A DNA stretch of 64,000 bases from positions 30,119,501 to 30,183,500 of the forward strand of contig OX485805.1 of the NCBI GenBank assembly GCA_950295325.1, given 5' to 3'. This stretch comes from Polytrichum commune (lineage: Eukaryota > Streptophyta > Polytrichopsida > Polytrichales > Polytrichaceae). The position numbers were made by a program, and so were the translations under genes. Positions 1-29,938 of this stretch are shown here, one piece after another. Within the stretch, counting starts at the first letter, position 1, and every line of letters begins with the position of its first letter. The notes beneath the pieces were generated by a model. The model was not told where the DNA came from. It ran no database searches and saw nothing but the letters and a program-made list of their open reading frames with translations.

Positions 1-2736
1 TTTGTAAGTGTTGTTGGAAGTAACCTAAGGATGTGGAGCCAAGGGGGATCACAAGCTATAGAGTTTTGTAACCATGTGCGGTTGGAGGTTAATAAAGATG
101 GGGTATTTATCTAGATTTTTGAATAATTGGCACCCTACTAGTAGATAAAATGGTACTTTGAGGTATTTTCAAGACCCTATAGGTAAATATAATTTACAGC
201 ATGAATTTATTTTATAAACTCCATTTTCTTTGTAAACCATACCATCTATCAAAATATTAGAATTTTGACTTAAATTGATGTTAATCCATAATGAAATGAC
301 AACAATACATCACTAGTACATGTAAACAACATTGAGTAGTACATGGTTGCAACACTATCTTGAAACTCTTAGTGACCTCCCCAAGCTTGCCAACATCTAA
401 AATCAATGACTTTTAGTCAACTGAGGCAACTTCTCCATCCAAATCAAAGACATTCTTCATTCCTCACATAAATTCTTCATTCTTCCAAATATAACAAACC
501 CTATTGTATTAATAAAAAAGAAATATTACCTATATTTTTCACCTACCTTATTTTAGATATAATATTGTATTGGTCATTTCATCCAAGCTATAGTATTTCC
601 AATATTTGTATCATTTTTTTATGACTTGAATTGAACATATCCTATGTTTTTTCTCACATGGTTTAATAAAATTTCAACAATGACCTCCCCATGATGTGGA
701 GTTACCATCCTCTTGCGCACAACGCGGGGGTGTAGTGCCTCGTGGTGATGAGTGTTAGCCATCTTGCTTGAGTGTTGGAGTGAGGTGAACATGGTGGGGG
801 TGCGCCGCCTAGATCTAGAGGCACAAAGAGAGCAATGTGTGAGGTCAAAGAGTGTAGTTAGGATGGTATGCATAGAGTGATGAGCAAAATGAGGTGATGG
901 AAACTTACATTCTGTGAGCCTGTGTATGAATGAGGAAGATTGGAGTGGTTGTGTGAGGTTTTTATGATGGTTTTGGGTTGTACAGTGGTGGAAGAATCAT
1001 TTTGTTGGGTATGTGGAGTGAGGTGGAGCATCTAAGGAGTAAGGGATGCACAATGAGTGAGGGTTATCAATGTGACCGTGGTGGGAGAGTAGTGTTGTGG
1101 AATATTTGTGGATGAGGGGAGAGGATCGAGTAAAGGAGATGGGAATTGTGGTTGCATGCCGAGAATGGAGAGTTTGTTGAGTGAGGAAATCAAGATGTTT
1201 GTGCATGTAAGGGTAGATGTGTATTCTTGGGGTGTATCGTGTGGTGATCCCATGTTAGGGGGATGCAAGCGAGGATTTGGCATGTGGCTGGGGGCCGGGG
1301 GGGGGGGGGGGGGCAGCTTGAGAGGACGTGCTCAGATAAAGATCCAGGGTGTTGGGGAGTGAAAATGAGGATGTTGTGGAGTGGGAGCAAACCTAACGGC
1401 ACAACGGCCATGAAGTGGGGTATTGAGTCGAGCAACAAGGGCGGAGCCCTAGAGTGAGATCCTAGGTTGAGCATAGGAGCGGGGTTCATGAGCGATGTCC
1501 TAGGGCAGGCAACATGAGCAAGACCTTGGAGCATAGGGGGGAGGGTGGATGGGTAGTGTTGCAGGGTGTAGTGAAGGGGAAAACAACGATAGCTGCTACC
1601 CATGTGTAAAGTAGGAAGTGTTGGATGTAGTGAAGAAAGGGAGGACTAGTGTAGAATTTTGAGCGTTTGTAGCTCTACATTATAATGTTGTTGGGAAGGC
1701 AATGTAGTGGGGAGCCGCTACTCCTAGGTTCGGTGATGAATATAATTGTGGTTGCCGAGATAGTGGTGTCGGTGTTGTGGCCGTGTGGTAATGAGTAAAG
1801 TTGTTGTCGTCAAAATATGGGTGCCAGTATTGTGGTGTGCAGGAGCATTATGGGAGTCAAGTTTCTCAGTGTGCACTTGTTGGGTCTTCTGAGATGTTGG
1901 GTCGCTTGGATCTAGTCTTGGTAGGGTGCACTTGTTTAGATCGTCCGGGTTGCAGTCAGTTGAATTGGGTGATAATAAGGTGCACTTGGTTGTGGGAGGA
2001 GATGTATCTAGGCCAATGTGTGTGTTTCATTGATGTGTTTTGCAGAGAGCATGCTTGGCTTCAACTTGTGGCTGCCATGTTGCAATTGTCTGTGCTTGAG
2101 TTGTGTCTGTTTAGCACCAAGTTTAGCGGAGCTCCTCCATTGCCCCTCCGAAACTTGAGTAACTTAGTTTACAATCAAATTTCTTGAGAAGTGTGCTTGC
2201 ATTGCAGATCCAATGTCTATCGTTCCCGACTCCATATTATATGTACCATAATACAACAACATTCTCAACTCACATCCAATATAAATCACATCATACGTGG
2301 AACACAAGGATAAGCTACTAGAATTGTTACATTGGAATAAGTTTGATCCAAGTTAATTAGTTGTATTCTCTGGCTTCAATTTGGCCCTCCATAGAGTAGG
2401 TAGACTTCCACATAGATTAATAAAAAAAAGAATTCAACTAGCAACAGTCTAAAGTCACTAAGTCACTAAGTTACTCCACTCATCTGGGCATATTCATTCA
2501 AAAACAAAGTTATGGGACTATTAAGAGGCCGTGGACATCGAAAGCTCTCCTCAAATAAGAGCCGATAAAATATTGTACTGGTCACTTCATTGATAATGCT
2601 ACACCATACCGATGTCTGTAGAATTTGCCTCAGTACTGAAGAACAATGCAAATAAATTGTGCACTAAACAGATGAGATCCCTATATTCTGCACTGTGAGT
2701 ATAATCACGTTCCTGTTGTGTGCATGCCTAACATCA
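1..2736. other. no gene recognised; G/T-rich stretch
   Basis: I see no exon that matches a known family here. From about 700 to 2100 the plus strand is strongly G/T-rich, so the minus strand gives long proline/histidine-rich open frames that look like composition artefacts. A 17-base G run lies at 1297-1313. The stretch is probably decayed transposon sequence plus the 3' flank of the Nudix gene that ends at 2737. Confidence 0.4.
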
Positions 2737-5700
2737 TCAGTAGTTTGATTGGGGCAGACTGAAGGTTTGATTAGCCCAAGAAGAAATCAAATGGTGTGCA
2801 ATCGCATAGGGCCCTGGTACAAAAAGTGGGCTACTGGTTTCACTGCTCTCCTGTTTCACATCTGACAAGGGTTTGTGCAGCTTCTTAATTTCTCTATCTT
2901 CGATTGTTGTTGTTGCTGCCGCCTTTTGGATCTTCAACATGGCCTCCAACTGGTCCTTCTTAAAAGGAATCTGTTGAAGTGCGTTCCTTATTTGTTCCCG
3001 AGGGTGCCACCTGGCATCTGGCCAGTCAAACAACAGATGCATTAAATTCATGAAACATGATTACGTTGATTATAGTAAACAGGGTGGACCACACTATTGA
3101 GCTTGTTTCCACACTAAAAGCGCTGGGGATATTACTGTGGGTGCACATTATTTACCAGCCCACAGAATTTAACATCAAAGGTCCATGTTGTAAGGTAGAT
3201 GGGTCTTGTAACGTTCCTCTTTCCAACTAGCCCACTTCTCCTAGGATATGAAACACACGATTAGTACAACATGGTTAGCAAATCCAAATCAAGTCTACAG
3301 CCACTTTCCTCATGATTTTCGGAGCTCATATGAATATCTTATTCATTATCAAAGTGAAGGTTTCCATGCTCATTGAATAAACTTGACTAGACCCTAAAAT
3401 GGTTAGCATATTTTAACCATGAAGTCCAATCTCTTTTGAGCACATGTCTTTCTAGTATCCATTCTTGGAGCCACACCAACCACATACCACTCAAATATAG
3501 GTGTCCTAATAAGAAAAGCAACTGAATAAGGGTTGTCTACCTTAGGTTACAATATTTCTATTGGACTGAAAATAGTGCACTTTTGAAAAACTTCAATCTA
3601 GGGGAAGGACGTGGCTACATCACAGAGCCATGACAGATTAAACTAGGGCTGCAAACTATTTTCTTGCGAAGTGGTGTAGCACTGTCAAATTTTACATTTT
3701 GGCTGCACATAAATTACACATACTTGAATTATCCCTCCAGTAAGAGGACCCTCAAAATGATCAATACTTGATATTAATTTACAAGCTACAATAGACCCCA
3801 GGCATGAAGCAACATGATGTAAATTGATCCAGAGTTGCAAAGAAAAGAATAATCTGTCACATAATTACATACCTTCCAGCTCCTTTCCGTCCACTTTAAT
3901 GTCAAAAGTTTTGGCATATGCAAAGAAGCCTATCATGAGCTGGCACGACATTGAGCTAGGTCCTACTGCAAATCAAAGCAACACATAATTTCAGTGGTTC
4001 AGCTATGTACCCAATTATAACAGTATGCAGTGACAAAATTTTGTCCATAACGGCTTCAGAATTAGCATATATTCTTTGCATTAAGAGCAAAACTTAGCCT
4101 ACTCATCAAAATATTATTGCATGAGGTAAATAAACCTTAAATGGTTACTATTTTCCAACTAGCCCACTTCTCCTAGGATATGAGACATGTGACTGTGTGT
4201 GATGGTTAGCAAATCCAAATCAAGGCCGTAGTCACTTTCCACATAATTTGGAGCTCACACGAATATCTTATTTATTTTCAAAGTGAAGATTCTTATGCTC
4301 ATGAAATGGTCATATAGGTTCCCCCCAATTATGTTGACTATTAAGCCAAGAATGGATATCATATTTTGAGTACGTAGTCCAATCTTTTTAGAACATGTCT
4401 TTTTGGTATCTGTTCTTGGGGCCACACCTAGCCACACCACTCAAAAATAAGTGTCTGTTTAAGATAAGTAACTAAATAAGACATATCTACTTTACCCATG
4501 CATACAGCAGCCATTGAAATAAGAAATGATTTGGTGATGTCTAGACAGAAAATGTTTGATGAACTAAAGATATATATCTTAACACACGGAATCAGTTTTC
4601 TATTTTTGAAACTCTTTATTATTGCACATTATTAACCTGTGAGCTGCACAGAAAAAAATTACCTGGCCAAGGTTGAGAGCTATGGTATACTATGTCACCA
4701 ACTTCAATACCTACTTCCTCCCGAGTTTCACGGTGAACTGCCTCCTCGAGACTTTCACCAGGCTGTAAACCAACAAGATGAAATTATCACATTTCAAGTC
4801 TGTTCCATGACTGAACGTTGAGCAAAATTTGAATCAGGATAATTGGACAACTGGCTTAGAGATTTACACTTAAAATTCTTAGAATACGGACAACCTAAAT
4901 TCTTGTAAAGCAGATCGCATCGGTTGACATGCAATGATCATCTATCTGCCAATGAATGTTGACCTTTTAGGGTTTGATTGACATTTCTATATTTGGTTCA
5001 ACCTAGGCAAAACAGGCGTTCAACGAACTGACCTCGATGAAGCCTGCTAGGCAGCTCCACATGCGTGGCACAAATCGCGATTGCCTGGCCAAAATTGCAC
5101 AGTCACGCTCTTTGTCAATGACAAGCATTATTACAACCTGCAGCCAGAGTACAGCCCCCGAAATTGTCATATGCATTGAATTACAACTGCATCCCTATTG
5201 ACTTCTCACCATCTACAACAACAGAGTGTAAATGACACAAAAAACACTGCCAGAAATACAGGGTTGTATAGAAGTTGATAGAGATTGCACCTAAGATGGC
5301 ATCACCAATTCTGTCAAGGTAGGATGAAAGTCAAAATTTATGAGAAACAAATCTCAAACAAATAGACTTTAAACCACATGTGCGCACACTCTTAATTCAG
5401 TCAATCTGGATATGTTCTCAAACTCTGGACTTCTTGATTGCCTTGATTCTATGAGCGGGGATCCATTGGCACACTTCCATACACCTAAATTTTATGGGAG
5501 GTATGTGAACCCTTAGTGGTTGCTTGAATGTTATGATATTGAAATATGATGGAAAAAATCAAATTTATACTCCCTGATCTTAAATCTAAATGATTAAATT
5601 AGAGATAATCAAAATATAATCAAAAAAATTGCTAAAATATTATCATAACCATCTATGTATATTCCATCAGAGGATCCTACCATACAATTGTATCAGAGGA

Positions 5701-8645
5701 TCCTACAATAAAATTCAGCATTTTGTAAATCTGGACTGGGACTTAGCCCAGTTTTACTTAAATATCAGCAGTGGAAGACTTACAGGATCAATCCGCGGGT
5801 ATAATTTATGGTTGCACTTAACGTTAGAGCACTGCCTCCTTTGCCCACATAAAATGGGGCTGGTGCTACTCCCACAGCGTCCACAGAAAGCAGCCTGCTT
5901 GTGCCATTCTAACATAGCCCTAGCCTGTAGAAACCACACCAGACCAGTACATCATATCATTGATCTTGCCATTTTTTGGTAGTATAGAAAGGGAATTAGC
6001 CCAAAAATTGGTACATGAGCCCTGCACGGCTTCAAAACTGTACATGAGGCTTCCCCCATACGCAGCTCTCAGGATTTCCCAAATTCCCACTTGTGTTCAA
6101 CATGGACTGGCTTGTCCAGAAAGTTAAACGTTGTGTTCTACGAAAAAGCATGGATTTCACTTTGATGTGGTCCACATTTATTTCCTCGTGGATTTCTAAC
6201 ATCTTTAGGCAATTTACTGAACAAGATGATGTATCACACAAGGATTCTGCTCTAAGGTGTTCCATACCTGTTGCTCTTGAATGGTTCCAAATTTACACAG
6301 ATGTAATTTACCTTGAGCAGTGATGCGTCAAACACACATTATTGTTTTCAACAAGAAAATTTGAAAATGATTCCTGAAAATGATCAACGGACACATATTT
6401 CGGTTCTTTCATCCTTGTAAAAATTATTAATTAGCAACCATGAAGCTCAGAATTTTTCCATCGCAACATATATCAGAACATATGTTTTGACGCGAATCTG
6501 AAGCAAGTGCTTCATTCAGAACTACTTCAAAATTTGGTAACGGATGCAGATAAGTTTAATCTATGTGGAGAAAATCACCCACCACACATAGAAATAGAGG
6601 ATTACTGTGGTTAAATCTGATTTCACATTCTGAGTTCAAATATTGAGTTCTATCTTCAGTTCACAGGGGTTCAGAAGCTTCACTCCACCCTGAAAAAGAG
6701 AGAATTCTTCAAGTAGGTTGCCACCTAATTCTATTCACAAAGTAAACATCACCCCAGTAACAATAACAAAGTATTTTCCGGTTGTTATCTGTTTTAAAAG
6801 TGGTATCCTAGCTGTAGGCATGTGAAGAAAATGTCTACTTGAAAATGGTAAGGAAAAATGCAAATAAATGTAATCTATGCGGAGAAAATCCTAATCAACT
6901 AAAGATAGAGCTCATTTGAACTCAGAATACGAAACTTGCAGATTGAACACCAGTAAATCATCTGTTTCTGCATGTGATGGGTGAGTTTCTTCACATAGAT
7001 TAACTTATCTGCATCTCCCCTTACCAAACTTATTTCTTGACATTCACTTCAGGTTCCTACTAACTATCTTTATGATCGTAGTTACCAAATGAAGAATACA
7101 CTCTGTTACTGTGGTTCAATCTGCTTTATACATCCTGATTTCAGATATGAGTTCAAACATCTTCAATTCACAGAGTCCAAAGGGTGATCTCCACCCACAA
7201 AAAACAAAGAATTCTTCAAGTGGGGTCGATTAGAAAGAGACAATTCTTCAAGTAAATCCAGGGTATGAAAGCAGATTGAACAGTAACCCTCTGTTTCTGT
7301 GTGCGGTGGGTGATTCTCTCACAAATATTATACTTACCTGCATCTCTGCTTACCAAAATTTTCAAGTATTTCTTGATATTTGCTTAAGAATCTACAGTTA
7401 TCTTTATGAAAAAAGGTATCAAATAAAACCTACACACTGATACTGTGGTTCAATCTGCTTTATACATTCGGAGTTTAAATATGAGTTTAATCTTCAATTC
7501 ACAGGGTTCACAGGGTTCATTCTCCATCCCAAAAAACAGAATATTCTTCAAGCAGGTTGATGCAAGAAATTCAAGGAGAAAATGCTTTAAGAGCAAACGA
7601 GTAAGGTAGGTTATTTGGCCAGCAATGGACATAAGAAGAGATGCAGAGAGGCTCAACCTATGAGGAGAAATCCACCCACCCCACCCACACAGAAACCAAA
7701 AACAAGAAAATTACTGAGTCTCAATCTGCTTTCACATTCTGAGTTCAAATAGAAGTTCTATCTTCAAATCACGGGGTTCAGAGGGTTCATTCTCCACCCA
7801 CGATAACAGAGACTTCTTCAAGTAAGTTGCTGCAGATTACCCAATTCAGCACAAACAGTACCAGAGTAACTTTCACTTGTTATCTCTTTTGAGAGACCTG
7901 CTGGAGGAATGCGAAGCGAATGTCAAGAACTATTCAAAATTTGGTAAGAAGAGATGCAGATAAGAAAATGTATGTGGAGGAAACCTCTCGCCAAATACAG
8001 AAACAAAAGATTTCTGCTTCCACACCCTGAGTTCCAAAAATGAGTTCTATCTTGAATTCACAGGGCTCAAATGGTTCACTCTCCACCCACAAAACACAGA
8101 ATTCTTCAAGCAGGTTGATGCAAGAAATTTAAGATAAAAATAAAAAAATAAAAAAGGGGGTATTTGTGATGAACGGTAATTAAGCTTACATGGCCAGCGA
8201 TGGCCAACTCGCCCATAGCATCCTGACTCGCCCAATCCGAAGCCTGCATGAGAGTCCTCACATCAGAAAAAGTGAGATCCTGCTGCCCAAACACATCCGC
8301 CAACCTCTTAGTCTCATGCCGGTCTGCGGAATCTTGGACTGGAACGTCGATTGCAAAGTATGCAACTCCATCTCGGTCTCCAATGTACACCATATGCTTG
8401 TTCCTGTCTTCAATTGTGCTGTAGTAGTGATGGATGTCATCGATGTGTTGCCATGCCAGATGCCAATGCGAGCTCTTCTCATGGCTGGGAGCGATTACCA
8501 AGGGTTTGCCATCGCAAATTGGTAAAACTTTAAGGATATGGTCTCCTGGGGTTTGGAGGAGGAATTCCAAAGCCTCCTTCTCTTGCTTCCCCCCTATTAT
8601 GGGATTTCCTGCAAAAGCGTTGATGGTCTCCCTCATTCTCAACAT
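2737..8645 (-). CDS. NUDT19-like Nudix hydrolase (NADH pyrophosphatase type), 6 exons
   Basis: Predicted to hydrolyse NADH/NADPH-type dinucleotides to mononucleotides. Exons on the minus strand: 8190-8645, 5784-5924, 5033-5137, 4663-4762, 3873-3965 and 2737-3017, all GT-AG and in phase, giving about 391 aa. The start could also be the in-frame ATG at 8636. The N-terminal domain carries the AFAGNP motif of plant NUDT19. A zinc ribbon follows in exon 2 (Cys166, 169, 184, 189). The complete Nudix box spans exons 3 and 4 (Gly231-x5-Glu237-x7-Arg245-Glu246, then Glu249-Glu250-x-Gly252). The NADH pyrophosphatase signature SQPWPvGPSSM is at 263-273. The C-terminus matches the family (FVPGPYAIAHHLISSW). 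Arabidopsis NUDT19 is plastidial, but I see no clear transit peptide here. Two MITEs sit in the 3' introns and a degenerate tandem array fills most of intron 1. Family identification is firm; exon edges were placed by eye. Confidence 0.9.
3193..3542 (+). mobile_element. MITE, TA-target family (full-length copy)
   Basis: A 350-bp element in the intron between exons 5 and 6 of the Nudix gene. It begins TA-AGGTAGATGGGTC and ends GTCTACCT-TA, so short terminal inverted repeats are flanked by a TA target duplication. The inside is shared with about ten other places in the window: a segment around TCCTAGGATATGAAAC, then ATATCTTATTCATTAT, then GTCTTTTTGGTAT-like text, then ACTCAAATATAGGTGTCC. It has no coding capacity. 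The TA target suggests a Tc1/mariner-type helper, but that is inference. Confidence 0.75.
4130..4495 (+). mobile_element. MITE, TA-target family (diverged copy)
   Basis: Same internal order as the copy at 3193-3542 (ATGGTTACTATTTTCCAACT, CTCCTAGGATATGAGAC, GAATATCTTATTTAT, CATGTCTTTTTGGTATC, ACTCAAAAATAAGTGTC). Both ends are eroded, and the right end reads TATCTACTTTA. It lies in the intron between exons 4 and 5 of the Nudix gene, so neighbouring introns of one gene each hold a copy. Confidence 0.65.
6530..8125. repeat. degenerate tandem array in Nudix intron 1
   Basis: A unit of about 280-330 bp recurs about five times with heavy divergence. Recognisable pieces are GATGCAGATAAG, TCTATGTGGAGAAAATC, CACATTCTGAGTTCAAAT, TTCACAGGGTTCA and GAATTCTTCAAGCAGG. 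The last piece can be followed at about 6700, 7208, 7540, 7808 and 8099, so the last copy ends about 65 bp before the intron donor. The array accounts for most of the 2.3-kb intron. It shows no coding potential. Confidence 0.6.
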
Positions 8646-17989: not shown

Positions 17990-18740
17990 AGTGATACTAT
18001 TGCATGTGTGACATTAAATACCATAAATGGTGTAGTTCAATGTTTTTGTGATATTGTTGGGGGGGGTATGTGGAAGCTTTCGAGTAGTTCAATGCTCCTT
18101 GTGTGTATGGAGCCTCGGATACATGTGGTGATTACTATAAGTGGGTTGACTTTTCAACCTTGTGCTTTGATTGCGACAATAAGAGGAATATATCTATTGC
18201 TTTTGGTTAAGATGGCTTGGTTTGTATATCTATCATGCGCGAATGTAAATTATAGTACATGGATTCTTAACTTGGGGTTTGGTGTGTATGCACATGGTCG
18301 TTCTTGTGGTGCACCTTCGACATACATAATGTATGGACAAAGTCTTGTCATACATGTACATTTTGTTGTCGGGCATGTGCATTGTAGTACCCATGATAGG
18401 ATGGCATTTCCTTGTGGGTGTTCACATTTGTTGCAAATGTTTGTAAGTGTGTGGTATCTTGTATGGATACATGATTTATGTAACTTGGCGATTTGTTGAG
18501 TAGGGGCGTTTGTGACGTGCAACTCTAAGTCCTTTAAGGAATTCATGATTGCATAGGGAGAGTAGGTGTGGCCATGTGTCTTAGTCATTGTTACGGCATA
18601 GTTTATAATTAGGGTTTGTAATTTGGGGGGCCATAAGAGGTTTTTTCCTATGGTTGCCCACCTATTTTGCGGATTTGAATTTGAGGATTTGTGTGATTTG
18701 GGTAGAATATACATTTGGCTCACAAAGCCCAACCCTAGCA
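17990..18740 (-). pseudogene. LINE-like element, 3' fragment (copy A, endonuclease-like end)
   Basis: The minus strand reads a decayed C-terminal domain: a Cys-rich CTCPTTKCTC segment, then YVEGAP, then HVL-stop-FTFAHDRY, then GxKVNPLIVITTCIRG and HTRSIELL. The same order appears in copy B at 20.7-21.2 kb. The expected PD is changed to PY and the expected catalytic Glu codon is now TAA, so the fragment is dead. It abuts copy C, which runs the other way. Confidence 0.6.
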
Positions 18741-20160
18741 ACTCAATGGCAAGGTATGGGCCTCACACATCCCACCAATTACCAAAGCATAAGTGAAGCA
18801 ATCCCCTGGACCAAAAATGGCCGCCAAAGCAAACCCAACAACATTACCATACTCATCCTCACCCACAAAGGTTGGTCATCCCCAAAACTATCATTAACAA
18901 AACAAAACATTCTTATCATCACAACCATCCCATCCAATGCTCTCCAATTTACACTAGAACCCGAATGGCCTTCCTATTATAACCGCCCCAAACCATCACT
19001 CAGAACAATTACATGCACACATAGCCTAGACACACCACCCGTAAAACACACATTTACGCCACACCTACAACAAATCATCTAAGAGCAATATAATCTCAAC
19101 ATCCCTACACATCCACAATCATCATAAAAACATACAAAGTAAATGCATCACATAGACGGCTCCTTCATACCCCTAATGGCAAAAATAATGGAAATTTAGT
19201 TGGCTTAGGGTGAATATCTTAATTAATGATATGCAAATAGCAAAAAGACTATCAGGCTTCCAAAACATCCTACTTGCATATCTTCATGCCATCTAGCTAC
19301 ACTAAATATGATATTTAGTGGTGTATGGTACTTTATGTCACTATGGTAACTTTTTTGAGTGACACTTCTTATGAATAAGTGATCAATAATTGTCATGGAT
19401 GATGGATGAGATCATCCATTGGCCAAACCCTATCTTCTATTGTCAACACCTTGTGATGAAATATTGTCATGGGTGATTGAAATTTGGATGAAAATCCACT
19501 TGGTAAGTGACAGTAATTGCAACACTGTAAATCTTTAGTTCCCAAAAAAAATTACAAGGACTGACAAATAATGTTGGGTTAACATTTACTGCTAGTGACA
19601 CTATACTATGGTTTACAATTAATATTGAGCAAGACAATTAGAATTGGTGACACTAAATATCATATTTAGTGTGGCAATTGCCAACACACAAAACATCTTC
19701 CATGATATCCACATATTCACCGATTCTTTAAACAACATCTATTTCCTAAACAACATATAAGACGACCATCTTCCCAACATAATCACCCTAACAAACTACT
19801 TATAGCTTCCATAGTACACCTTATCACATGGATCCCACACAAAATTGTAATTGAAAAAGTTAGAGCTCACACATGTATACATGGAAACAACCAAACAAAC
19901 ACCTTAGCCACTGATGCCACATCTAAACCTATATAACCCCAATGATATGTACCACATATACGCATGGCCCACACCATCCCCTACATACTAGCAAAACCAT
20001 CCTCATTGGCTAACCTCACCTGAATAACAATGAATCTTAAAACATTCGTAAAGAAAGAACACAATAGGATTACAATCACAAAAGCCAAATAACTCCAATG
20101 CATCAACAAGTGTATCACTAATGACCAAATTCGTCACAAGCTATCCAACTCCTTATGGAT
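18715..20160 (+). pseudogene. LINE-like element fragment (copy C: methyltransferase-like and RNase H)
   Basis: The plus strand first reads a domain also found in copy B: FGSQSP, WQGMGLTHP, NNITILILTHKGW, LEPEWPSYY (18715-18990). An RNase H follows with frameshifts: DGSFIP near 19155, IFTDSLNNIYFLNNI near 19705, and KVRAHTCIHGNNQ near 19860. The RNase H is split by a separate insertion (19300-19671). The stretch LQCINKCITNDQIRHKLSN near 20095-20155 continues the element before it breaks off. It is not functional. Confidence 0.55.
19300..19671. mobile_element. small insertion with CACTA-type palindromic ends inside copy C
   Basis: The 372-bp insert is bounded on each side by a 21-base palindrome of the form CACTAAATAT-n-ATATTTAGTG. 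The centre base is G on the left and C on the right, so the two ends are inverted copies. It separates two parts of the RNase H coding region of copy C. The CACTA...TAGTG termini recall the CACTA superfamily, but I see no convincing 3-bp target duplication. Confidence 0.45.
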
Positions 20161-20236
20161 AGAGAGAGAGAAAAGAGAAGAAAGGTTGGTCCTTATGGAT
20201 TAGTGTGATTGAAATGCCCGTTCGACCCACCCTTGG

Positions 20237-20259
20237 TATTATGCCCACTGGGCATAATA
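20237..20259. repeat. 23-base palindrome
   Basis: The sequence is TATTATGCCCA-C-TGGGCATAATA, symmetrical around one C. It lies between two LINE-like fragments, and no function is evident. Confidence 0.6.
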
Positions 20260-20619
20260 ACAGTGGTGCAGGGAAACTAACCCCTCTCGGGTGGGCACTA
20301 TAATAACTAGGGCCATGGAAACTTAGTGACTGGAGGATTTTTGTATAGGTGTTGTTAATGTGGTTGTGATGTTTGTAAGGGTACGTTTTTAAATTTTTTA
20401 AATTTTTTTATTGTGTGGTGGTCACCGAGTGGGTTACTCAGTGGATCTTCAAATATGGGGGTTAATAACACCGGTTTAGTGGTTTGGGTTCCATTCTTGA
20501 TGGCCTCTTACGAGCATTGTATTGTGACGTAAGTGACTTGGCATATGCTATGTGAGTTTACTTGGTGGAACATATCAGCCCTACCATGGGTTGTAACAAT
20601 TCTTTAGCTCTCTTTGGCA

Positions 20620-23480
20620 TTTATTATTTTCTTTTCATCTTAAATATTAATTATTTCTATTTCTATTTTTGTGGGTATTTGGGGTTGTTATGAGGGTTGT
20701 GTGTCTGTTGGTAGTGGTTCATTGTTTTATATTCTCCTTTTGTGTAGGATTATGAACATGGCATATTGTATGGCAATGACGTTGATTTCCTCAAATGTGT
20801 GTTTGATGCTTATTTTGGGAATTTTAAACATTGTTTCAATATTTTTCATAGAAGGGGTGTGTGTGTGGCTGCCCTAGCACCAACCGTGATGACTATTAGT
20901 GGGTCTACCTTCCATCCTCTATTGATAATATTGTCTATTAGTGGTTCATATTTTATGTTTTTCTAATTATGGTATCATATGGTATTCTGTCATTACAGTA
21001 TGTGAATTCCATGAATTGTATTATTAGGTTCTCATTCGATTCTGTTGGTGATGGGGATTGGTATGGTAGTCCTTTCACGCATAAGATGTCCGGTTTGAAT
21101 ATGGCATTGCAATGACATCTTTGTTGACCATATGTGCAAGGTAGTAGCCATGGGGGGACTGTGTTTTCTAGTGGGTTATTATTGAATGTGCATGCATTCA
21201 TGAAAATATAACATCTTGACTTTTTTTATGCCACTATAATTTTTCTTAATTCCCATATTGCCTTATTATGCCTTTTAGTTCGGAGGGCATGTGTGTGGTG
21301 TTGTTTGCACTTTAGAAGTACGTGTAGTCATGTGTCAGGGTCTGGAGAGTTACATATGGGGCATGTGATTGACGGGAAGGCTGACCTGTTGAAGAACAAA
21401 TGTTTATTGGCGTTCCCCATATATTGGCCATGTCTTAGTTTTAGAAGGCATATTTTTTGGGAGTCCGTTATATTTTTGTTTGTTCATAATTTATTTGATA
21501 ATTCATTATCTATTTTCACTATCCACTTATCTATGTTGGGATATAGTATGAGAATTAATTCTACATTTATATTCTTATCATGTTTCGTGAGATGTTTTTC
21601 AAGGAATCTAATAGGTCCTTTGTTTGGGGTTGTTCCCATTGACGACCAATCGCCTCTTTGGTAGTAGTACTTATGAAGTTGAGTGGGCAAATTCATGTGG
21701 TTGTGAGGCGTTGAGGTGTTCTTTTGACGTGCCTTCTTTAGCAAGTATGTTGGCTTCCTCATTCCCCGTGATGTTTGCATGTGTTCTTACTTTATATAGT
21801 GTTGTGGGTTGGGTTCTTTGTAAAAGTAAGTTAACTATTACTTCTAAATTAGTTTTATGTGGGTGGTTGTTATGTAGTGTGGGGTGTTTTATTTGGTTTT
21901 GTTATTACATGTAGGCCATTGAGGCAGTCTGTGAAGATATGTGCGGGTTTATTTGGGAAGTCTTTATTTAGTATTGTAAGGGCGTGGTGTATAGCCATTA
22001 ATTATGCTCTGAAAATGTCTTGTAGGCCTGGTAGTTGTATTGCAAGTTTGATATTTTTTCTTGGTTATATATGCCGTAACCAACTTCTTCCCATGGCCAA
22101 ATATCTCCTATTTTTTTGGAGGGTTGAAGGATTTGTCTGTGTAGAAGCAATATTCGGGAGAGAATTTGTGTGGTTGTAGGGTTTATGTTAAGGTTATTAC
22201 ATATATTTTTTATTGTGTTAATTTGTTCTATGGTACCGATATTGTTATGTCAGTGGTGTATGCAAAGGATTCTAATAGCAAGTGGTTCTATACGTGGCTC
22301 GCTGAGTTCTAGAGGTTTAGTTGGTTCCTCGTATTTCGTGGTATCTACTAGTATATGAGTGATTACATGTGTGTATGGGAGGGGGCCTATATATGGGGTG
22401 AGATTTTGAAACCATTTAAAATATGGGATGGTGAGTATTGTGATGGTGTCTGGGTCATGTTTAGGTACTAACCTAGCCCAATGAATGGCTATTTGGGCTT
22501 CGTTTTCATTGTGGGGGTGAGCATAACCTATTCCTTGCCATTTGTGTGAGAATGCAGTACCAAGAGATCCGAAAATTTTATCTTTGGGGAATGGCGAGAA
22601 GTTTGTTAGTTGAGTGGAGCATGTAACCGGTGAGGAGAAGTAGGAATGGGTAATATTAAAAGAATATTGTGATGTAGTCTAATAGTACATTGGGTAGGGC
22701 ATGGTGTGAGTTTTTGAGTAGGTCATTTTTGGGGAATCTATATTTATATCTTTGATATAGCCAATTTATTTATATTTCAAATGTTTGGGTGGGGGTTATT
22801 AGGTCGTGTAGTTGGTGTAGTATTTGGTTGTATTGGGTCCAAAGCCATGCAAGTCTATCATAAGGAATGGTTATAAGATGTTTGCATGTTTCATCATATA
22901 TGTGGGTGATGTCATCTTGTACTTGAATTTTGTTTATGTTAGTATTGATATTTTTTTCAAGGTTGCATTCGTGTGTTGAATTATTTTTTACGAGGGGGAT
23001 GTTCAAGGGCGGGGATATGTGCCTTGGGTGTTTGTTTTGGGTAGAAAAATCATTTTCTCGTATGATTATTTCATATAGTGTATGTTGTTTCTTGGTAAAG
23101 TATGTGAGTATTATATTTGTATTATGTTGTATGACTCTTGGGGTATTATAGGGAAACAATTCTCTTTGTGGGAGTTTTGTGTTATAAGTTGTACCATTGG
23201 GTAGTATCCATTGGCATAGGTTTGTGTAATTTTTTTTTTATAATTTTATGTTTGTCTTTGATTGGTATCATATAATGGTCTATGATTGAGTGTATAGGGT
23301 ATTTTATTGGGTTGTTTATTATGTGTGTTGGTGTGGGCGGGTGTATTAGATGTGTTAGGGTTGGTGGGTGTGTGTGGGTATCACTATTTAGAGGTTTTGC
23401 CCAAGACTGCAACCATAGGTAGGATAGTAACCATGGGTTATAGGAGGCAATCAAGTCCAATGCATGGAGTTTGACCATAA
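20620..23480 (-). pseudogene. LINE-like element with R2-type C-terminus (copy B, most complete)
   Basis: Read on the minus strand with several frameshifts and stops, in order: an N-terminal part (23478-22770, with YDRLAWLWTQYNQI); a methyltransferase-like block (22580-22200: FGSLGTAF, KWQGIGYAHP, ITILTIPYFKW); RNase H (22085-21700: LMAIHHAL, IFTDCLNGL, KVRTHANITGNEEANILA); a CCHC finger (21363-21307, C-x2-C-x9-H-x4-C, with a TGA where Trp is expected); an R-H-N motif (about 21275); and a restriction-endonuclease-like end (KPDILCV near 21090, IQFMEFTYCND near 21010, then KY and a GWKVDPLIVITVGARAATH-type tail to about 20720). A T-rich stretch at 20620-20670 would be the 3' A-rich tail. I recognise no reverse transcriptase in what remains. 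Confidence 0.6.

Positions 23481-24965: not shown

Positions 24966-29938
<4,973 letters not shown>

Follow-up and report, generated by a model that had tools for sequence, protein, structure and literature searches.

Introduction

Dualen/RandI LINEs were reportedly described by Kojima and Fujiwara in 2005. Plant L1 LINEs have a poly(A) 3' end, and the trypanosome element L1Tc carries a 2A sequence at an N-terminal place. Excerpts of PMC3636483 and PMC4640811 distinguish Dualen/RandI as LINEs that have an APE together with a PD-(D/E)XK-type endonuclease, and an excerpt of PMC8226300 reports Dualen from relatives of Chlamydomonas. The R2-type endonucleases, as set out in a passage of PMC5678591, combine a CCHC knuckle (CX2-3CX7-8HX4C) with an RH, placed at the first helix, and with a PD-(D/E)XK core in which the K belongs to KX2KY.

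The window, ie the whole 64,000-nucleotide stretch of moss DNA analysed here, holds a remnant of a LINE which, to judge by longer copies, resembles Dualen/RandI in its APE and PD-(D/E)XK-type endonuclease signature (excerpts of PMC3636483 and PMC4640811) and in having RNase H in the same protein (excerpt of PMC4640811). Beyond the Dualen/RandI layout given in those excerpts, the moss element has a PCIF1-like domain, which follows the reverse transcriptase (RT) and precedes RNase H, as well as a 2A motif. With R2 and other RLE LINEs it shares the CCHC knuckle followed by RH, PD, D/E and KX2KY (passage of PMC5678591), and its best RT match is an R2 protein. Unlike them, it has an APE, RNase H and the PCIF1-like domain, and its knuckle, CX2CX9HX4C, is one residue longer than the R2 form given in that passage.

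The copy in the window

The preliminary description had placed a LINE-like element at 20620-23480, and all of its motifs were located within that interval on the minus strand (Table 1). The motif set is beyond chance. At least 68 pieces of the 407.8 Mb genome itself match the stretch (of 1447 candidates from the first look, the best 40 were scored). The copy belongs to a LINE group that is present hundreds of times in the 408 Mb genome; among the best 40 of the 1447 candidates, the closest are 89-90% identical to it. The interval lies on the element, but comparison with other copies, which puts the element's limits at ~23398 and 20175, leaves its first ~80 bp (at the high end) outside, and ~450 bp of 3' UTR extend beyond its low end.

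The window copy is interrupted by stops and frameshifts. Two matching pieces that are 117-134 bp apart in other copies have no gap between them in the window copy, which indicates an internal deletion in the interval between the methyltransferase-like block and RNase H, near 22163-22174. Searched against Pfam, pieces of the window matched PCIF1_WW with an E-value of 0.0015 and RNase H with one of 0.0071, both below the curated cut-offs, which longer copies exceed, and the AlphaFold model of two window pieces was poor (mean pLDDT 45.7) and did not confirm the fold. The sense strand of the element is rich in A and C and poor in G (A 41, C 25, G 12, T 22% in the window copy; A 43, C 28, G 10, T 19% in positions 1-8538 of the copy L053), which explains the strong base skew of the stretch and may help to keep long frames open. 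The remnant lies ~1.5 kb downstream of a lactate/malate dehydrogenase gene, the exons of which are at 24966-28129 on the minus strand, with Pfam matches to Ldh_1_N and Ldh_1_C on two pieces.

Table 1. Features of the LINE copy in the window. Positions are those of the window; the NPPF of PCIF1 and the longer copy L014 are described in the text.
Feature	Position	Strand	Basis
Whole LINE remnant, 5'-truncated, decayed	~20175..23398	minus	blastn junctions against longer copies; at least 68 genomic matching pieces
Linker from RT to PCIF1-like domain, and N-terminal half of PCIF1-like domain	22659..23398	minus	tblastn, L014 frame aa 1443-1684
Stretch homologous to PF12237 (PCIF1_WW, methyltransferase core)	22420..22800	minus	limits estimated; L014 match projected via tblastn
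FGSLGTAF	22550-22573	minus	translated window
GYAHPHNE (site of the PCIF1 catalytic NPPF; Asn to His)	22505-22528	minus	alignment to PCIF1
Site of ~130 bp deletion relative to other copies	22163..22174	minus	split matches around query 1307/1318
RNase H domain, frameshifted, limits estimated	21690..22111	minus	PF00075 on window piece and L014 projection
HIFTDC (RNase H)	21924-21941	minus	translated window
KVRTHAN (RNase H)	21773-21793	minus	translated window
CCHC zinc knuckle C-x2-C-x9-H-x4-C, in-frame stop inside	21307..21363	minus	translation; conserved in alignment A2
CPICNSPDPDT, then in-frame stop, then LHVLLKC	CPICNSPDPDT at 21331-21363	minus	translated window
R2-type endonuclease signature RHN, KPD, MEFTY, KNIKY	20870..21282	minus	motifs; passage of PMC5678591
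RTKRHNKA	21259-21282	minus	translated window
KPDILC	21079-21096	minus	translated window
IQFMEFTY	20998-21021	minus	translated window
K/Y segment KNIKY (KX2KY), shifted frame	20948-20962	minus	translated window
3' UTR: hairpins and TTTCTTCTC at end, then TC-rich sequence, without poly(A)	20175..20690	minus	

Longer copies and domain order

The copies examined were 14 longer stretches, 30 loci around matches to PF12237 (PCIF1_WW), and L053, which has a very long open frame (naturally 2919 aa, of which 2846 aa lie inside the piece that was fetched). The Pfam matches of L053 are APE (PF14529, 9.8e-8; PF03372, 1.1e-6), RT (7.3e-28), PCIF1_WW (2.5e-13; 50.4 bits against a cut-off of 31.1) and RNase H (1.8e-16). 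In L014, a single frame with two stops gave APE (Exo_endo_phos_2, PF14529; 1.4e-6), RVT_1 (1.8e-25), PCIF1_WW (1.6e-9) and RNase_H (3.2e-13). The order in the longer copies is 2A/StopGo, APE, RT, PCIF1-like domain, RNase H, CCHC knuckle and R2-type endonuclease signature. Judged on sequence, this is the Dualen/RandI layout plus one extra domain, with the second endonuclease assigned by motif, and it bears out the comparison with Dualen/RandI that had been drawn from the window, APE and RNase H both being found.

No RT had been seen in the window, a layout that had been called unusual, and a look upstream in fuller copies had been proposed. There, L053 has an RT in the same frame, as does L014 apart from two stops, and an APE also lies upstream. 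The window copy begins after the RT, having been 5'-truncated between it and the PCIF1-like domain, and so no RT is visible in it. An element truly without RT, which the window copy taken singly would favour, is refuted by the same-frame RT of L053 and L014; of the 30 loci sampled, 26 also have linker sequence from the RT side ahead of the domain, and the chance that such an element exists is negligible.

Between L053 and L014 identity is 77% in the RT, 70% in the C-terminus, 64% in the PCIF1-like core and 63% in RNase H; outside the core, the N-half of the PCIF1-like domain is 51% identical and the tail 46%. L014 and L017 are 98.3% identical over 9.7 kb, upstream frames included, and both have an insert of ~0.57 kb in the 3' UTR that is absent from L013 and L016. 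The pair arose either by very recent copying or by segmental duplication.

Identity of the PCIF1-like domain

PF12237 is the family of PCIF1, the writer of cap-adjacent m6Am on mRNA. A title cited in an excerpt of PMC10400116 names PCIF1 as an m6Am methyltransferase. The preliminary description had likened the block before RNase H to an N6-adenine methyltransferase and proposed looking for a significant match; this is supported and can be made specific, the block being PCIF1-like with PF12237 matches above cut-off, the lowest E-value being that of L053. All 150 candidates that were scored in the genome, out of 697 from the first look, lie above the curated cut-off. When the single sequence of L014 was searched against the PDB, PCIF1 was the sole match, weak (E 0.19) and in register, and a 14-copy profile matched only PCIF1 chains (E 0.022 and 0.14). 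With hhalign, the 14-copy profile aligned to the PCIF1 segment with a probability of 89.7 and 29% identity over 100 columns. For the homology to PCIF1, the E-values of PDB sequence searches are thus weak and the strong statistic is that of Pfam. PCIF1/CAPAM (6IRV, 6IRX) is the only family matched, and the order LP...F...SPxxC...FGSxG...motif IV is common to both; Pfam detected no WW domain in the element pieces searched (L014 and L053). The alignment of the domain (A1) comprises 14 of 18 stop-free rows, from 36 rows listed; the stop-free rows left out are L015, L038, L044 and L024, the last being the same place as L053.

RNase H lies on the same strand in all 30 fetched PF12237 loci, and the RT-side linker is also present in 26 of them. 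The PCIF1-like domain therefore belongs to the element, as had been proposed, and the same-strand RNase H rules out a host gene that happens to lie beside LINEs. No clear host PCIF1 gene was seen in the genome with a 108-aa PCIF1 segment, which gave nine weak matches (E <= 0.01; best 5.7e-4, identities 30-40%), six of them at PF12237 places and one more at a place with the His motif, ie seven of nine in the element. No relatives came from viral contigs, whether these were scanned with the PCIF1-like alignment or with the RT, and none from genome contigs scanned with the PCIF1-like alignment.

Motif IV and selection on the domain

In this enzyme class the Asn, Asp or Ser of motif IV holds the N6 amine of adenine. 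The EANPPF of PCIF1 aligns with the G-x-G-Y-A-x-P string of the element, which reads YAHPHN or YAHPHT in most fetched copies and YAHPPN in L023 and L024/L053. Where PCIF1 has NPPF the element accordingly has HPHN, HPHT or HPPN, and differs further in that the domain lies inside a LINE polyprotein. Searching the genome with a degenerate DNA pattern that encodes W-x-G-x-G-Y-A-H-P gave 278 exact matches (reversed control, 0), and the same pattern with Asn or Asp in place of His gave none. The canonical NPPF is not kept; the exact motif matches have His.

Values of dN/dS were obtained for 10 hand-picked pairs among nine sequences, with L041 aligned and unpaired. They are 0.06-0.22 in the PCIF1-like core in 10 of the 10 chosen pairs, 0.13-0.35 in the N-half and 0.15-0.37 in the tail, dS being above 1 in 15 of the 30 values so that those ratios are rough. 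The PCIF1-like core is under purifying selection. Low dN/dS together with His at motif IV indicates that selection maintains the core for a role that differs from standard N6 chemistry or goes further than it. RNA or cap binding is judged its most likely role, and altered catalysis the next; most likely the element has kept a PCIF1 fold, probably a non-canonical one, which would bind capped element RNA.

The domain could instead be a methyltransferase that is active with its changed motif IV (HPP/HPH) and acts on the element transcript or its cap-adjacent adenosine, in which case methylation would make the transcript resemble host mRNA or escape decay. Strong conservation and purifying selection would suit such an enzyme, as would the retention of FGSxG and SPxxC from PCIF1 and the HPP of L023 and L024/L053, one residue from NPP. 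We nevertheless consider it unlikely, given His in all 278 exact matches and none with Asn or Asp, the two replacements searched for, and a second Pro that has also become His in most fetched copies. A decaying passenger without function would explain the altered catalytic motif and the stops within the domain in 18 of 36 listed rows, but it is hardly credible, being largely refuted by the low dN/dS of the core in every chosen pair and by a core as conserved between L053 and L014 as RNase H is, even though the N-half and tail are less so.

A second, far more diverged relative of the element lies at 18052-20167 in the window, scrambled on both strands and with 29-34% amino acid identity. Where motif IV would lie it reads WQGMGLTHPTN; a piece of it matches RNase H weakly (E 0.0015), and Pfam gave no PCIF1 match for its piece. 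Its sequence suggests that the PCIF1-like domain may be older than the split of these two element families.

RT, RNase H and C-terminus

Against the PDB, the RT matches are led by three R2 proteins (6.6e-34, 3e-30 and 4.2e-30), with human L1 ORF2p at a lower rank (~2e-19) and then two Bombyx-type R2 (2.2e-17 and 3.9e-16). Since R2 proteins stand both above and below L1, the ranking leans towards R2 and is not clean. RNase H, which had been read from the window, was confirmed in the longer copies (3.2e-13 in L014, 1.8e-16 in L053), and in the PDB it matches RNase H1, at 1.7e-7.

The C-terminus was aligned in six sequences (A2), namely four stop-free rows of 10 listed, a later-starting piece of L013, and L053. 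The motifs run in the order C-x2-C-x9-H-x4-C, R-H-N, K-P-D, the E of FIEFTY, and K-x2-K-Y, and are invariant except that the D of KPD is Y in one row (L015). The R2-type C-terminus claimed for the window stands in so far as the published motifs (CCHC/RHN/PD/E/K) occur in order, but fails against all profiles and PDB sequences: Pfam gave nothing for it, and the top PDB sequence hit, at E 1.1, was a protein that has no relation to it. It is a candidate R2-type PD-(D/E)XK endonuclease, recognised by its motifs.

Were these motifs not an R2-type endonuclease, the element might be a plant LINE of the L1 type (APE-RT-RNase H) with gained domains. We hold this to be very unlikely. APE, RT and RNase H are all present, RNase H is known from plant L1 (excerpt of PMC4640811), and human L1 does rank above the Bombyx R2 chains; against this, the three best RT matches are R2 proteins, CCHC, RH, KPD, E and KX2KY follow one another in order, the D-to-Y change of L015 being their single departure from conservation in A2, and hairpins, not poly(A), were seen at the 3' ends.

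3' end and insertion

A recognisable 3' end was found in eight of the 15 sequences compared for target-site duplications. In all eight copies read, the 3' end consists of conserved hairpins and pyrimidine-rich sequence of the TTCTTCTC type, not poly(A), and that of L053 is a TATC repeat. The poly(A) end expected of a plant L1 is not found in these copies. For the hairpins 37 pairs are predicted, of which four have a compensated change, with a covariation term of +1.33; covariation support for them is therefore weak. A flanking repeat of 10 bp in L010 resembles a target-site duplication, and L013 may have one of 8 bp; the other six copies have no flanking repeat, or only matches of 6-7 bp, which is chance level.

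The 2A motif and upstream region

The sequence GDIExNPGP lies ahead of the APE-RT part in L011, L013, L014, L017 and L053, ie in five of the 53 loci that were fetched; the remainder are mostly short or 5'-truncated, and the PF12237 loci end before the position of the motif. It is absent from L009 and L019, in which blast matches reach further 5'. The leader of L013, L014 and L017 runs for 30 residues from a Met to NPGP, and L053 is open much further upstream. The motif fits the published 2A/StopGo consensus, (D/G/C/N)(V/I)ExNPGP (section of PMC12846837), and is a putative StopGo site. 2A sequences occur in other LINEs (excerpt of PMC4981915), which the present element resembles in having the motif before the APE-RT part; it differs from the known 2A LINEs in that the 2A is here in a Dualen-like, probably plant, element. 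The same section of PMC12846837, a 2026 survey, reports no natural 2A use by plant viruses.

A coding region further upstream, a candidate ORF1, is conserved in L014 (1-1940), L017 (1-2300) and L011 (1479-2271). Its frames are broken in L014 and L017, and in L053 the upstream frame is open and of low complexity. No Pfam match above cut-off was obtained for the L014 pieces of the candidate ORF1, and none for the upstream frame of L053. An (AT)n-like YIYIYI tract lies just ahead of the 2A leader in L014 and L017.

Discussion

We think it likely that the locus in the window is a dead, 5'-truncated copy of a Dualen/RandI-like LINE, in the relatives of which the PCIF1-like domain is probably a module for binding capped RNA. 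Such an element would move by target-primed reverse transcription. The APE, the C-terminal endonuclease, or both would nick the target, the RT would copy the element RNA starting at its hairpin-bearing 3' end, and RNase H would remove the RNA template. The PCIF1-like domain, most likely without standard N6 methylation, would probably bind the capped 5' end of its own element RNA, a role proposed because PCIF1 acts on the cap-adjacent adenosine, and this binding could favour the capture or completion of full-length transcripts. As to origin, we offer more tentatively the possibility that a LINE lineage captured PCIF1, lost the canonical catalytic residue, and kept the fold, under selection, as a reader of element RNA that is capped or bound to the polymerase CTD.

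Broad surveys of adenine methyltransferases exist. Neither PCIF1 in a retrotransposon nor Dualen in land plants is described in the titles and abstracts of the literature that was covered; as this literature does not extend to the founding paper on Dualen or the main one on 2A in LINEs, an earlier mention is possible.

How a LINE protein prefers its own RNA, and how the capped 5' end is handled at integration, are open questions. A LINE with a conserved PCIF1-related domain is a natural and testable link between mRNA cap chemistry and retrotransposition, and in a genome that is probably that of a plant it combines the dual-endonuclease layout with a 2A motif. As copies number in the hundreds and there are frames open over long distances, the proteins of the element can be studied directly. 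If a captured PCIF1 does serve as a cap reader, the element would be a retrotransposon whose protein has its own cap-recognition module besides two endonucleases and a StopGo site.
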